The notes under the pieces are model-generated. The model ran no database searches and was not told where the DNA came from. It saw only the letters and a program-made list of their open reading frames with translations. Source: Dyella sp. RRB7 (GTDB taxonomy: Bacteria; Pseudomonadota; Gammaproteobacteria; Xanthomonadales; Rhodanobacteraceae). Taken from it: 64,000 bases of DNA. Location of the stretch: NCBI RefSeq assembly GCF_022761115.1, contig NZ_JAKWJS010000004.1, forward strand, positions 186,001 to 250,000, given 5' to 3'. This document shows, one piece after another, positions 59,527-64,000 of this stretch. Made by a program: the position numbers and the translations under genes. How positions within the stretch are numbered: position 1 is the first letter of the stretch; each line of letters opens with the position of its first letter.

Positions 59527-59555
59527 TTGCGCGGCAGCGAGAATCCCGTCATGAT
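59527..59555 (+). promoter_or_regulatory. possible promoter of the arg leader
   Basis: TTGCGC (59527-59532) and CATGAT (59550-59555) with a 17-base spacer, a weak sigma-70 match. If used, transcription would begin near 59562, ahead of the leader ORF at 59581. Low confidence, since similar hexamers occur by chance. Confidence 0.3.
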
Positions 59556-59580
59556 GCGCGTTCAACCACCCGGAACACCC

Positions 59581-59685
59581 ATGTCCGCAGCCGTCTATAC
59601 CGCCACCGTACTCACCAGCGCCCGCATGGCCGCTGGCATGACGTCGCGTGCGCGCCGACCGCTGGTCCGACATTCGGCCGGGTAG
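59581..59685 (+). CDS. candidate arginine leader peptide (34 aa)
   Basis: A short ORF of 34 codons (MSAAVYTATVLTSARMAAGM, then TSRARRPLVRHSAG and a TAG stop). Arg is 5 of 34 residues, with four in the last 12 codons (CGT, CGC, CGA, CGA), two being the rarer CGA. GGAA lies 6 bases before the ATG; in-frame ATGs at 59551 and 59554 could extend it. No known domain. Its stop codon overlaps the segment predicted to form an antiterminator, which suggests control of the arginine genes by ribosome position. It is predicted from sequence layout only. Confidence 0.55.
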   Translation: MSAAVYTATVLTSARMAAGMTSRARRPLVRHSAG

Positions 59686-59746
59686 GCTGTCGCACGCGTT
59701 TCATGTGTATCGACGACAAAACCCGGCCTGCAGCCGGGTTTTTTTG
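59676..59746 (+). promoter_or_regulatory. candidate transcription attenuator upstream of argF'
   Basis: A strong intrinsic terminator at 59718-59746 (AAAACCCGGC, loop ctgca, GCCGGGTTTTTTT) lies 85 bp before argF'. The segment GGCCGGGT (59676-59683), overlapping the leader stop, is an exact complement of ACCCGGCC (59721-59728), which includes the terminator's 5' arm, so an antiterminator could form. Upstream, GGTCCGA-CAT-TCGGCC (59664-59679) can fold and would hide part of that segment. This is the architecture of amino acid attenuators. Confidence 0.6.
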
Positions 59747-59830: not shown

Positions 59831-60838
59831 ATGACGCTTCGCCACTTTCTGACCACCCAGGACTACAGCCGCGCCGAGATCGACGCGCTGCTCGAACAGG
59901 CCGCCGCCTTCAAGCGCTCCCCGCGCGGCCAGCAGCTGGCCGGCAAGTCGGTGGCGCTGATGTTCTTCAATCCCTCCATGCGCACCCGCACCAGCTTCGA
60001 GCTGGGTGCGTTCCACCTGGGCGGTCATGCCATCGTGCTGGCGCCGGGCAAGGATGCGTGGCCGATCGAGTTCGAGGTGGGCACGGTGATGGATGGCGAT
60101 ACCGAGGAGCACATTGCCGAAGTGGCGCGCGTGCTGTCGCGCTATGTGGACCTGATCGCCGTGCGTGCCTTCCCGAAGTTCCAGGATTGGGCCGTCGATC
60201 GCCAGGACAACGTGATCAAGGCCTTCGCCAAATACGCCACGGTGCCGGTGATCAACATGGAGACCATCACCCATCCATGCCAGGAGCTGGCCCACGCGCT
60301 GGCGCTGAAGGAGCACCTGGGCAGCCTGCAGAACAAGAAGTACGTGCTCACCTGGACCTACCACCCCAAGCCGCTGAATACCGCCGTGGCCAATTCCGCG
60401 CTGCTGATCGCCACCAAGATGGGCATGGATGTGACCCTGCTGTGTCCCACGCCCGACTACGTGCTGGACGAGCGCTACATGGCGTTCGGCTACCAGAACG
60501 CGAAGGAGAACGGCGGTTCGCTCAAGGTCAGCCACGACATCGAGGAAGCCTACCGCGGCGCCGATGTGGTCTATGCCAAGAGCTGGGGCGCGCTGCCGTT
60601 CTTCGGCCGCTGGGAGCAGGAGAAGCCGATCCGCGAGGCCAACAAGCATTTCATCGTGGACGAGGCGAAGATGGCGCTGACCAACCACGGCCTGTTCAGC
60701 CACTGCCTGCCGTTGCGCCGCAATGTGAAGGCCACCGATGCGGTGATGGATTCGCCGGCCTGCATCGCCATCGACGAAGCCGAGAACCGCCTGCACGTGC
60801 AAAAGGCGGTGATGGCCTCGCTGATCGGCCAGGGCTGA
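59831..60838 (+). CDS. argF': N-acetylornithine carbamoyltransferase
   Basis: A 335-residue transcarbamylase that carbamoylates N-acetylornithine to N-acetylcitrulline, the Xanthomonas-type arginine route. It has the carbamoyl-phosphate loop FFNPSMRTRTSFELG (residues 45-59). Glu92 (VMDGDTEEHIAEV) is at the residue number that excludes free ornithine in the X. campestris enzyme. HCLPLRRNVKATD near residue 291 includes the lysine known to be carboxylated in this family. The ATG at 59831 gives the family start (MTLRHFLTTQDYSR). It is the first gene of the arg cluster. Confidence 0.95.
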   Translation: MTLRHFLTTQDYSRAEIDALLEQAAAFKRSPRGQQLAGKSVALMFFNPSMRTRTSFELGAFHLGGHAIVLAPGKDAWPIEFEVGTVMDGDTEEHIAEVARVLSRYVDLIAVRAFPKFQDWAVDRQDNVIKAFAKYATVPVINMETITHPCQELAHALALKEHLGSLQNKKYVLTWTYHPKPLNTAVANSALLIATKMGMDVTLLCPTPDYVLDERYMAFGYQNAKENGGSLKVSHDIEEAYRGADVVYAKSWGALPFFGRWEQEKPIREANKHFIVDEAKMALTNHGLFSHCLPLRRNVKATDAVMDSPACIAIDEAENRLHVQKAVMASLIGQG

Positions 60839-60846
60839 GCCCTTCC

Positions 60847-61473
60847 ATGTACCTGCCCGCGCCCTTCAGGGAAACGCGCAGCGACATGCTGCATGCGCTG
60901 ATGCGCGCGTATCCCTTCGCCACCCTGGTCATCCAGGGGGAGGGTGGCCTGTCCGCCAATCATCTGCCGCTGGAACTGGCGGGCGAGACGGCGCTGCACG
61001 GTCATGTGGCGCGCGGCAACGAGCTTGCCGGCGCCGACGGAGCCGAGGTGCTGGTGATCTTCCGTGGGCCCGAGGGCTATGTGAGCCCGAACTGGTATCC
61101 GAGCAAGCATGAGACGGGGCGCGAGGTTCCCACCTGGAACTACGCCGTGGCGCATGTGCATGGGCGCCTGCGGGTGATCGAGGATGCCGACTGGCTGCGC
61201 CAGTTGCTGGAGCGTCTCACCGATCGCCATGAGGCCAATCAGCCCAGGCCCTGGCATGTGTCGGATGCACCGGCGGATCACACGCAAAAACTGCTGCGCG
61301 CCATCGTCGGGCTGGAGATCACCATCGACCGCATCGAAGGCAAGTTCAAGCTGAGCCAGAACCATCCGGCTGCGAATCGCGCCGGTGTCATCGATGGCCT
61401 GCGCCAGCGTGATGCGCGTGGCGACGCGGCGCTGGCCGATCTCATGTCGTTGATAGAGGAGCGCAGGCCGTGA
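60847..61473 (+). CDS. FMN-binding PaiB-like protein
   Basis: A 208-residue protein of the PaiB/FMN-binding split-barrel group (MYLPAPFRETRSDMLHALMRAYPFATLV, LSANHLPLEL, GPEGYVSPNWYPSKHETGREVPTWNYAVAHVHGRLRVI, IVGLEITIDRIEGKFKLSQNH). In Bacillus PaiB is linked to regulation of protease and sporulation genes; elsewhere a flavin oxidoreductase activity is possible. It starts 8 bp after argF' and overlaps the OsmC gene by 4 bases, so it is within the arginine transcript. Confidence 0.88.
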   Translation: MYLPAPFRETRSDMLHALMRAYPFATLVIQGEGGLSANHLPLELAGETALHGHVARGNELAGADGAEVLVIFRGPEGYVSPNWYPSKHETGREVPTWNYAVAHVHGRLRVIEDADWLRQLLERLTDRHEANQPRPWHVSDAPADHTQKLLRAIVGLEITIDRIEGKFKLSQNHPAANRAGVIDGLRQRDARGDAALADLMSLIEERRP

Positions 61474-61949
61474 GCAACGGACATCCGCATCACTACCAAG
61501 TGGACGTGACCTGGACCGGCAATCGCGGCAGCGGCACCAGCGGCTATCGGGACTATGGCCGCGAGCATGAGATTCGCGTCGCCGGCAAGCCCACGCTGGC
61601 GGGTTCGTCCGATCCTACCTTCCGCGGCGATGCCAGCAAGCACAACCCGGAGGACATGCTGGTGACCGCACTGTCCACCTGCCACATGCTGTCCTACCTG
61701 CATCAAGCCGTGCTGGCGGGCATGGTGGTGACCGCTTACGTCGATAGCGCCGAAGGCAGCATGGAAACCGACGCGCACGGCGGCCGTTTCACCGAGGTGG
61801 TGTTGCGCCCGGTGGTGACCATCAGCGCCACCAGCGACCCGGCCAAGGCCGAGGCCGCCCACGAGCCGGCGCACCATGCCTGTTTCATCGCCAATTCCGT
61901 GAATTTTCCGGTGCGCTGCGAACCGCGCATCGTCGTTGAATCCGCCTGA
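61470..61949 (+). CDS. OsmC family protein
   Basis: A 159-residue OsmC/Ohr-superfamily protein (YQVDVTWTGNRGSGTSGYRDYGREHEI, then NPEDMLVTALSTCHMLSYLHQAVLAGMVV with one conserved Cys, and HHACFIANSVNFPVRCEP with the second). It may reduce peroxides but belongs to a different subgroup from Ohr at 16547. The start is GTG at 61470 inside the PaiB stop (GTGA overlap). argG follows 40 bp later. Confidence 0.88.
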   Translation: MSNGHPHHYQVDVTWTGNRGSGTSGYRDYGREHEIRVAGKPTLAGSSDPTFRGDASKHNPEDMLVTALSTCHMLSYLHQAVLAGMVVTAYVDSAEGSMETDAHGGRFTEVVLRPVVTISATSDPAKAEAAHEPAHHACFIANSVNFPVRCEPRIVVESA

Positions 61950-61989: not shown

Positions 61990-63183
61990 ATGAGCAAAGA
62001 TATCGTTCTCGCCTTCTCCGGTGGCCTCGACACCAGCTTCTGCGTGCCTTATCTCAAGGAGCGCGGCTGGGCCGTGCATACCGTGTTCGCCGATACCGGC
62101 GGCGTCGATGCCGAGGAGCGCGCCTATATCGAGCAGCGCGCCAAGGAGCTGGGCGTGGCCAGCCATGTCACCGTCGACGGTGGCCCGGCCATCTGGGAAG
62201 GCTTCGTCAAGCCGTTCGTGCAGGCTGGCGAGGCGTATCAGGGCCAGTACCCGCTGCTGGTGTCCGACCGTTACCTGATCGTGGATGCCGCCATCGCGCG
62301 CGCCAAGGAACTGGGTACCAAGGCCATCGCGCATGGCTGTACCGGCATGGGCAACGACCAGGTGCGTTTCGACCTGGCGGTGAAGGCGCTGGGTGACTAC
62401 GACATCGTGGCGCCGATCCGCGAGATCCAGAAGGAGCATACCCAGACGCGCGCCTACGAGCAGGCCTATCTGGAGGAGCGTGGCTTCGAGGTGCGCGCCA
62501 AGCAGAAGAGCTACACCATCAACGAGAACCTGCTGGGCGTGACGCTGTCCGGCGGCGAGATCGACCATTGGAAGACCCCGGGCGAGGGCGCACGTGGCTG
62601 GTGCAAGCCGCGCGCCGAATGGCCGTCCGAAAAACTGTCGGTGACGATCGGCTTCGAGCAGGGTGAAGCCGTGTCGCTCAACGGCGAAAAGCTGCCGGGC
62701 GCCAAGCTGCTGGCCAAGCTCAACGAGCTGTTCGCGCCCTATGGCGTGGGCCGTGGCATGTACACCGGTGACACCACCATCGGCCTGAAGGGCCGCATCG
62801 TGTACGAAGCCCCGGGCCTGGTTTCGTTGCTCGCCGCGCATCGCGCGCTGGAAGAGGCCGTACTGACCAAGCAGCAGAACCGCTTCAAGCCGGAGGTGGC
62901 GCGCAAGTGGGTGGAAGTGGTGTACGAGGGTTTCTACCACGATCCGATCAAGACCGACCTGGAAGCCTATCTCGCCTCCAGCCAGCGTTGCGTCAACGGC
63001 GAAGTGGTGCTGGAGACCTCCGGCGCCCAGGTCACCGCGGTGGAGGTGCGTTCGCCACATATCCTCAATGCGAAGGGTGCAACCTATGCCCAGTCGGCCG
63101 ATTGGGGCGTGGCCGAGGCCGAGGGCTTCATCAAGCTGTTCGGCATGAGCAGCACGTTGTGGGCCGAGGTCAATCGCAGCTGA
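61990..63183 (+). CDS. argG: argininosuccinate synthase
   Basis: A 397-residue ATP-dependent ligase joining citrulline and aspartate. The PP-loop ATP motif is [17 protein letters not shown] (residues 5-21). [40 protein letters not shown] and [11 protein letters not shown] are characteristic. It is preceded by GGATCTGCAAGCC and lies in the arg cluster. The following 133-bp gap before argE' holds a paired REP-like element. Confidence 0.96.
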
Positions 63184-63191
63184 TCTTTGCG

Positions 63192-63274
63192 CGTCATCCC
63201 TGCGCATGCAGGGATCCAGCGTCTTTCGCGGCGACGTGCAAAGACACTGGATTCCCGCCTTCGCGGGAATGACG
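63192..63274. repeat. paired inverted REP-like element
   Basis: Two REP-type units facing each other. The left is CGTCATCCCTGC-GCAT-GCAGGGATCCAGCGTCTTT (63192-63225). The right, AAGACACTGGATTCCCGCC-TTC-GCGGGAATGACG (63241-63273), ends in the same GTCAT core in reverse. The outer ends and the CCAGCGTCTTT / AAGACACTGG inner arms pair with each other, making one large palindrome of about 80 bases between argG and argE'. Confidence 0.85.
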
Positions 63275-63316
63275 TGCTGGTAAACCTTGAAGCGATAACC
63301 ACACAAGACGGATCGC

Positions 63317-64000
63317 ATGAACGCACTACTGGACGACACTCTCCGACACCTGCGCGCGCTGGTCAGCTATGACACGCGCAATCCGCCGCGCGAGATCGGC
63401 ACCGGCGGCATCTTCGACTACCTGCGCGACAACCTGCCGGGTTTCAATATCCGCGTCACCGACTATGGCGCGGGCGCCGTGACCTTGTACGCGGTGCGTG
63501 GCCAGCCCAAGGTACTGTTCAACGTGCACCTGGACACGGTGCCCGATTCGCCGCACTGGAGCGCTGATCCGCACACGCTGCGTGTGACCGGGGATCGCGC
63601 GATCGGCCTGGGGGCCTGCGACATCAAGGGGGCGGCCGCGGCCTTGGTGTCGGTGGCCAATGTCACCCAAGGTGACATGGCGTTGCTGCTGTCCACCGAT
63701 GAGGAAGCGAACGACCCCCGTTGCATCGCGGGCTTTCTCAAGGACAAGCCCGTCTATGACGCCATCATCGTCGCCGAGCCGACCAAGGGTGAAGCAGTAT
63801 TGGCGCATCGTGGCATCCATTCGGTGCAGATGCGTTTCAAGGGCAGCGCCGGGCATGCCTCGGGCGAGTTGAAGCCGACGGACAGTGCCCTGCACCAGGC
63901 CATGCGCTGGGGCAACGCCGCGCTCGATTTCGTCGACAAGCAGGCGCACGAGCGCTTTGGTGGTCTTACCGGCCTGCGCTTCAATATCGGCAAGGTGGAA
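63317..64000 (+). CDS. argE': acetylornithine/N-acetylcitrulline deacetylase, partial (runs off the window)
   Basis: The first 228 residues of an M20-family metallohydrolase. Visible features are the metal motif VLFNVHLDTVPD (about residue 72), LGACDIKGAAAA (about residue 98), the catalytic and metal acidic pair in LLSTDEEANDP, IIVAEPTKGEAVLAHRG, and the start of the dimerisation domain (MRFKGSAGHASGELKPTDSALHQAM). Together with argF' this suggests it hydrolyses N-acetylcitrulline to citrulline, the substrate of ArgG. The ATG at 63317 follows the REP element. The 3' end is outside the window. Confidence 0.93.
   Translation, partial: MNALLDDTLRHLRALVSYDTRNPPREIGTGGIFDYLRDNLPGFNIRVTDYGAGAVTLYAVRGQPKVLFNVHLDTVPDSPHWSADPHTLRVTGDRAIGLGACDIKGAAAALVSVANVTQGDMALLLSTDEEANDPRCIAGFLKDKPVYDAIIVAEPTKGEAVLAHRGIHSVQMRFKGSAGHASGELKPTDSALHQAMRWGNAALDFVDKQAHERFGGLTGLRFNIGKVE

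Follow-up and report, generated by a model that had tools for sequence, protein, structure and literature searches.

The region upstream of argF' in the window, by which we mean the whole 64,000-nucleotide stretch of Dyella sp. RRB7 DNA analysed here, raises the question of how arginine synthesis is controlled in bacteria that lack a recognisable arginine repressor. A sequence-only reading had proposed an attenuator at this place, made of a 34-codon open reading frame with clustered arginine codons, an intrinsic terminator and an exact 8-base match between the end of the frame and the terminator's 5' arm, and had seen no candidate repressor gene nearby. All of these elements are present, their earlier coordinates are right (Table 1), and the remark on the repressor is borne out for the whole genome of the window, in which the ArgR model (PF01316) has no match; the same model gave a match in 9 of 14 control genomes. 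Across the order, ArgR exceeds the cut-off in 8 of 398 genomes, all of them from a single family (f12) in which no leader-profile match occurs and whose three examined argF loci are without a leader, and in none of the 261 leader-positive genomes, one match (G362) lying below the cut-off.

The leader region and operon of the window

Within the window, the segment GGCCGGGT at the end of the leader frame has its exact 8-base complement, ACCCGGCC, at positions 59721-59728, which take in most of the terminator 5' arm, the terminator itself reading AAAACCCGGC-CTGCA-GCCGGGTTTT at 59718-59742 and then TTTG. This arrangement is unusual in the surrounding DNA: a strict script for exact-stem terminator-like hairpins found nine on the two strands of the window, and for just one of them, that of argF', is the 5' arm matched by an exact 8-base complement at most 70 nt upstream. 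The fold of the 199-nt leader also beats 198 of 200 dinucleotide shuffles (z -2.87). The leader peptide contains arginine at positions 15, 23, 25, 26 and 30, and only R23, R25 and R26 are invariant in relatives. A possible promoter was picked out by eye, in which case transcription would start near 59562; this block is partly kept among the 76 leaders with upstream DNA compared (the window and the set L003-L082), and a consensus scan for promoters found no promoter-like site there. The weak Shine-Dalgarno-like GGAA before the leader start appears as GgAa in the consensus of 76 leaders.

Table 1. Features of the argF' locus, in coordinates of the window
Feature	Position	Strand	Details
Possible promoter, TTGCGC, 17 nt, CATGAT	59527..59555	+	picked out by eye; putative
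Weak Shine-Dalgarno-like GGAA before leader ATG	59572..59575	+	picked out by eye
Rfam RF02242 (Xoo5) match	59579..59712	+	33.6 bits, E 2.7e-5, permissive search of 461 bases
Leader peptide ORF	59581-59685	+	34 codons and TAG stop at 59683-59685; reads MSAAVYTATVLTSARMAAGMTSRARRPLVRHSAG
Nearly invariant core, codons 17-26, A-A-G-M-T-S-R-A-R-R	59629..59658	+	comparison of 154 distinct leaders
Proposed stall site, R26 codon CGA and P27 codon CCG	59656..59661	+	codon counts in relatives
Antiterminator segment GGCCGGGT	59676-59683	+	17 nt after start of P27; overlaps last codons and stop
Intrinsic terminator	59718-59746	+	5' arm 59718-59727, 3' arm 59733-59742, T tail
argF', N-acetylornithine carbamoyltransferase	59831..60838	+	best solved relative 3kzc, E 8.5e-188
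FMN-binding (PF04299) gene between argF' and argG	60847..61473	+	Pfam
OsmC-like gene, also between argF' and argG	61470..61949	+	
argG, argininosuccinate synthase	61990..63183	+	
M20 peptidase family gene, cut by window end	63317..64000	+	Pfam match

The last gene of the window is probably argE-like, a name that we take from its position, and the FMN-binding and OsmC-like genes (60847-61949) have no obvious link to arginine. Between argG and the following gene lies an inverted-repeat intergenic element, GTCATCCCTGCGCATGCAGGGATCCAG ... CTGGATTCCCGCCTTCGCGGGAATGACG (63190-63280), which we take to resemble a dispersed repeat.

Conservation of the leader, its antiterminator and its peptide

The leader was followed into other genomes in two ways. 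When loci were chosen by argF' alone, the best 80 of 562 relatives being taken (close relatives, 86-99% identical to the argF' of the window), the leader frame, ending in TAG, was found at all 81 loci including the window; in 79 of them the aligned first codon is ATG or GTG. Two of the loci deserve separate remark. In a Dyella contig (L004, about 100-180), near a contig end, the leader starts with the frame GSEMCIRDS, presumably sequencing-adapter read-in; a record titled Candidatus Eremiobacteraeota (L049) carries the full leader and an argF' 92% identical to that of the window, and is probably a mislabelled bin.

When loci were chosen by the leader, a profile (A1) built from 16 peptides was run on 398 genomes of the order and gave matches at E <= 1e-3 in 261. 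For counts by family, the profile rows were paired by hand with an argF' search of the same genome sample, and among genomes with argF' a match was present in 125 of 125 in family f1, 125 of 128 in f2, 3 of 3 in f3 and 6 of 10 in f4, where 2 more were recognised by eye and 2 went unjudged since the contig ends too soon. The three missed f2 genomes show MTSRARR before argF', as does a fourth (G353), whose own profile match is a chance hit elsewhere; with this one and the matches in f8 (G132) and f9 (G043), which were judged chance, at least 3 of the 261 genomes are chance matches. At 100 loci fetched by profile hits, part of the same match set, argF' adjoins the leader in 93 (60 of 60 chosen automatically and 33 of 40 hand-picked, weak hits included), the other seven being weak hits chosen for a look. 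The hit at L144, out of frame within a receptor-like gene, was judged to be due to chance, as were those at L150-L155, where no argF' is present. In a class-wide sample the profile matched 6 of 369 genomes, 5 of them within the order and one, from another order, at E 7e-4. This last (L280, 1505-1570) reads LAAGMTARHRRR, then GGCCGGGTT, which is somewhat similar to the leader; no argF' match lies nearby and the hit is probably a chance one. The genome of the window contains the core pattern once, and two core peptides tested against Pfam and NCBIfam gave no match.

Pooling the 81 argF'-selected loci with the 93 leader-selected loci that have argF' gave 174 loci and 154 distinct leaders; for the 93 the presence of a leader is circular, while the tests of helix, geometry and codons are not. 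In each distinct leader a script sought a terminator after codon 27 and then the best pairing of the upstream RNA with the 5' arm of that terminator. A terminator was found in all 154. All leaders but one (L114), 153 in total, also have an antiterminator helix of 5 bp or more, which measures at least 7 bp in 140; counted from the first base of the P27 codon, it begins 17-18 nt downstream in 129 leaders and 15-18 nt downstream in 146. As the best helix was taken each time, chance alone would probably yield some pairing; the constancy of its place and sequence goes beyond what that choice explains. Persistence of the frame at every argF'-selected locus, of the complementary segment in all leaders but one and of R23, R25 and R26 in all 154, together with the missing ArgR match, supports the interpretation of the region as an attenuator.

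Covariation was examined at the variable base of the 7-mer. In the 140 of 154 leaders in which both 7-base motifs were recognised (14 were dropped), the variable base forms C-G in 102, T-A in 32, a T-G wobble in 5 and a mismatch in 1, and perfect Watson-Crick pairing at 7/7 occurs in 113 against a mean of 80.3 and a maximum of 96 in 2000 shuffles; from locus L113 up, the margin over the shuffles is modest (23 of 49; shuffle mean 15.7, maximum 24). Placed on the argF' tree these changes yield 3-4 independent contrasts, of which on average 2.0 go the same way, 0.2 the opposite way and 0.8 show no difference, which is not significant. With so few independent changes the covariation, taken alone, is suggestive rather than decisive.

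In 134 of 154 leaders the stop codon has a constant place, adjoining or overlapping the antiterminator; in the other 20 it is displaced, to 3-27 nt after the start of P27. In 17 of these 20 the helix starts 15-21 nt from P27, the others being L142 and L143 (13 nt) and L124 (25 nt). It is the antiterminator, and not the stop, that keeps a nearly fixed distance from the Arg-Arg-Pro site. The stop of three f4 leaders (L116, L142 and L143) comes 3-6 nt after the start of P27, and a ribosome terminating there would leave most of the antiterminator uncovered, which counts against a strictly classical reading in these cases. A protector (1:2) pairing, as would serve the untranslated state, for which at most 5 of 100 simple shuffles were as good was seen in 42 of 91 leaders from the window to L112 and in 11 of 63 from L113 up, and is inconsistent among leaders.

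A feature missed by the sequence-only reading is the conservation of the peptide itself. Codons 17-26 encode a nearly invariant A-(A/S)-G-M-T-S-R-A-R-R in the 154 distinct leaders, while silent positions vary: A17, M20, S22, R23, A24, R25 and R26 are present in every one, T21 in 153, G19 in 151, and position 18 is A in 124 and S in 30. A14 is likewise found in 153 of 153 leaders, with one blank, P27 is replaced in 10 of 154, and residues 28-32, before the stop, are unconserved. Counted as departures from consensus over codons 17-26, in distinct sequences and not in evolutionary events, first and second positions depart in 36 of 3080 cases, 32 of them the A-to-S change at codon 18, and third positions in 375 of 1540; over codons 17-21 the figures are 36 of 1540 and 263 of 770. 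A17, G19, M20, T21, S22 and A24 together account for 213 silent departures against 4 replacements. A his leader was sought as a control within the same genomes by a rough scan before hisG at 30 loci, and none was evident, so that the flanks of the same frame and the outer families served as controls for the conservation of the core. In the N-terminal flank (codons 4-11) the three codon positions depart at 28.5, 27.4 and 32.7 percent, and in the C-terminal flank (codons 28-32) at 46, 40 and 34 percent. A three-base rhythm of the kind seen in the core is not expected from RNA structure alone, and the comparison indicates that the peptide sequence itself, and not only its arginine codons, is under selection.

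Some codons are fixed beyond what the peptide would require. R26 is encoded by CGA in 151 of 154 leaders; at 93 loci, where the initial 1000 bases of argF' were counted, CGA makes up 31 of 1834 arginine codons. Since the arginine tRNA anticodons found in the window's genome are ACG, CCG and TCT (30 of its 47 tRNA loci were scanned), CGA is probably read by the ACG (inosine) tRNA. Such decoding, like that of Arg-Arg pairs containing CGA, was slow in a his-leader assay, according to the part of that report available (PMC4046918). S22 (59644-59646) is TCG in 154 of 154 leaders although neighbouring third positions vary, a fixation for which the peptide alone is no explanation.

Readings of the proposed switch

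Taken together, these comparisons make it likely that the argF' operon is regulated by ribosome-mediated attenuation, with stalling at RARR(CGA)P when charged arginine tRNA is low. RNA polymerase would make a leader RNA encoding the short peptide, and a ribosome translating it would stall at R23-R26, with the rare CGA at R26 and then proline, its leading edge falling short of GGCCGGGT. A ribosome with a given codon in its A site covers roughly 12-14 nt beyond it; with R26 in the A site GGCCGGGT would hence be free, and with the ribosome at the stop it would be covered. Left free, GGCCGGGT would pair with ACCCGGCC, break the terminator and allow transcription into argF'; a ribosome that reached the stop codon would mask it and let the terminator form. 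When arginyl-tRNA is scarce, the nascent chain may further help to keep the ribosome in place, and three arginine codons would then be enough. The stall itself, the arginine signal and the action of the peptide in the exit tunnel are the elements of this scheme that we infer.

The his, trp, leu and thr attenuators of Proteobacteria consist of a leader frame, regulatory codons, an antiterminator and an intrinsic terminator, with readthrough dependent on a stall. The argF' leader has the same parts and appears to follow the same logic; it differs in that the amino acid is arginine, in that only three arginine codons are invariant, and in that the rest of the core is nearly invariant as well. Comparison of the leaders points to the features expected of this class, namely a frame before a biosynthetic operon, codons for the end product at the stall position, and a mutually exclusive terminator and antiterminator at the right spacing. 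The Rfam models of the Leu, Thr and Trp leaders match the region of the window only below their cut-offs. Arrest peptides of the SecM and TnaC type and the fungal arginine attenuator peptide carry a short invariant stretch ending at the stall site, and the argF' leader would share with them a peptide, rather than codons only, conserved up to a fixed stall point; the likeness is one of conservation, with P27 replaced in 10 of 154 leaders. We take the R-A-x-P-like end of the core to resemble R-A-G-P of SecM, as a lead only. A parallel, by description, is the carA leader of Pseudomonas aeruginosa, which encodes a peptide ahead of a gene for the synthesis of arginine and pyrimidines and for which attenuation is considered possible; the gene differs and the attenuation is ascribed to pyrimidines in the part of the source available (PMC4997734). 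A search for an arginine leader peptide in the order found no report among the matches listed, mostly non-subscription literature. What would be new here is regulation by arginine, the replacement of an arginine-rich stretch by a fixed peptide, and the reassignment of a known sRNA family.

The conservation of the core suggests that the nascent chain matters, this being the best account of it. We give about an even chance to the more specific proposal that A-(A/S)-G-M-T-S-R-A-R-R defines a new family of bacterial arrest peptides, placed where related families have a plain arginine-rich attenuator, whose nascent chain, either alone or with a metabolite of the pathway as its ligand, controls transcription of the arginine operon in f1-f4 in place of ArgR. 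If true, this would explain how these bacteria, the named loci being mostly from Dyella, Rhodanobacter, Frateuria, Luteibacter and Fulvimonas, with Xanthomonas joined through Xoo5, control arginine synthesis without the repressor. The likelihoods attached to the main reading, ribosome-mediated attenuation, and to the alternatives below overlap, as an ordinary attenuator and a metabolite-sensing peptide would work through the same switch.

The strongest alternative is an ordinary arginine attenuator of the his/trp type, sensing nothing but the supply of arginine codons, with the core conserved by constraint on the RNA or by slow divergence. Outer families do have plain arginine-rich leaders at the same place, and constraint at the level of RNA evidently exists, as the fixed TCG of S22 and CGA of R26 attest; nevertheless, we regard this alternative as unlikely, since conservation of the core follows the codon periodicity, both flanks of the same frame vary freely, and the residues other than arginine (G19, M20, T21, S22 and A24) should drift under it, no such sharing being seen in the outer families.

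A metabolite-sensing arrest peptide, in which the nascent chain A-x-G-M-T-S-R-A-R-R stalls on binding one of the pathway's small molecules, the supply of arginyl-tRNA being secondary, is somewhat more doubtful still. The logic would come out right if the ligand were an acetylated intermediate that builds up in a shortage of ArgF', and very strong conservation of the peptide with only three invariant arginine codons is what this account would predict. The chain that spans the distance from the peptidyl-transferase centre to the tunnel constriction is about as long as the conserved stretch A14-R26. The ORF34 leader of speF in Salmonella, whose E. coli counterpart we take to be SpeFL, offers a precedent. 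Like the argF' leader it is conserved, has 34 codons and contains an arginine pair, it responds to ornithine and arginine, and ribosome pausing at its arginine codons in the absence of arginine sets the fate of the mRNA, in the account given by the available part of PMC6386406. Its action differs, running through termination by Rho, decay by RNase G and the translation of a gene for ornithine decarboxylase; the peptide is unrelated, and that part of the source describes no intrinsic-terminator switch (PMC6386406). Against metabolite sensing at argF', the outer families use arginine-rich leaders for the same task, which fits the sensing of arginyl-tRNA, and an arrest induced by arginine would have the wrong sign because a stall here antiterminates.

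The sequence-only reading had also missed a relationship: similarity to the Rfam family RF02242 indicates that the leader RNA is related to an RNA published as sRNA-Xoo5 of Xanthomonas oryzae. At gathering thresholds Rfam reports nothing in the window, whose match (Table 1) lies under the gathering score of 50; among 20 chosen loci of the order, 11 reach at least 50, with scores up to 144 bits, L157 scores 32.5, and at E <= 0.01 no match was obtained in L133, L134, L116 and five outer-family loci. The two RNAs are homologous and occupy the same place before argF', and RF02242 is catalogued as an sRNA gene rather than as a translated leader or attenuator. In X. oryzae, sRNA-Xoo5 was cloned, mapped at its 5' end and seen on Northern blots; it has a size of 124 nt, with Northern bands of about 130 and 100 nt, both early in growth and only the short one later, and it maps between PXO_00354 and PXO_00353, the latter listed in Table 4 as N-acetylornithine carbamoyltransferase (PMC3039613, in the part available). 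The words leader, terminator, argF and arginine are absent from the main text of that paper. The RF02242 model begins with CU-AUG, so that the mapped 5' end falls two bases before the leader start, and it stops before the terminator, its 3' end falling about 35 nt short of the last base of the T run in L129; with a cloned 3' end upstream of the terminator, the published Xanthomonas RNA is not simply the terminated leader. As a separate observation, the argF' and argG proteins are among those lowered in an sRNA-Xoo1 mutant of X. oryzae in Table 4 of the same source (PMC3039613). It is improbable, in our estimation, that the element acts in trans, as a small RNA (sRNA-Xoo5, as published) or through its leader peptide, and that its conservation serves this second function. 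The published sRNA and the RF02242 scores in the order speak for this account. It sits poorly with the codon-periodic conservation, by which the element looks translated, with the presence of argF' beside the leader at 93 of the 100 loci fetched by profile hits, and with the retention of terminator and antiterminator in outer families that lack the peptide. If attenuation is the correct reading, a catalogued sRNA of unknown function would be reassigned as an arginine leader.

Arrest at the stop codon in high arginine, in the manner of the fungal arginine attenuator peptide, which would mask the antiterminator and favour termination, accords with the constant place of the stop in most leaders and is nonetheless very improbable, given that the stop moves in 20 of 154 while the core and the antiterminator mostly keep their spacing, and that the residues before it are unconserved.

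The same site in other families

In families f5 and f7-f11 a short arginine-rich frame precedes argF' at 12 of 14 loci, e.g. MNTHASAHNRTNPRRRRVLQSTAG (L256) and MKNVMGNSIFPGRRARRTRRPLLAG (L264), and no residues besides arginine and often proline were seen to be shared among these leaders. The criterion, at least four arginines in eight residues of a short frame, is loose in such DNA and also flagged unrelated frames (L250, L251, L253, L271 and L272); the 12 leaders were accepted for their place just before a terminator, 10 of them with an antiterminator of at least 7 bp, the remaining two having 4 bp (L258) and 5 bp (L264). The pairing is kept with different arms in L270 (CCAGGTT with AACCTGG) and occurs in another register in L268. 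CGA is common in these leaders too, at 17 of 53 codons of the arginine runs, and the one arginine-rich peptide tested gave no NCBIfam match. No leader was seen at the single locus of family f6, at the three loci of f12 or at two of the four f10 loci, nor at a second, distant carbamoyltransferase gene of G004 (L274), which was excluded from the 14.

The comparison therefore indicates one site with two forms, a plain arginine-rich attenuator in the outer families and a fixed peptide in f1-f4. If this is true, a single order holds a natural comparison between the two at the same site, in which the origin of an arrest peptide would be directly testable. Rooted with the distant f12 genes, the argF' tree places 11 of 12 arginine-rich rows inside the core families, near the window, with supports for this nesting of 94/95, 90/84 and 96/95, several of these rows being long-branched; the core label then takes five changes, at least three of them forced by well-supported branches. 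When f12 is left out and the core rows are cut from 74 to 33, three changes are needed, and a tree that separates the arginine-rich from the core rows is then not rejected (p-AU 0.18). By this test a single switch from an arginine run to the core, absent from the best tree, would yet be compatible with the argF' sequences.
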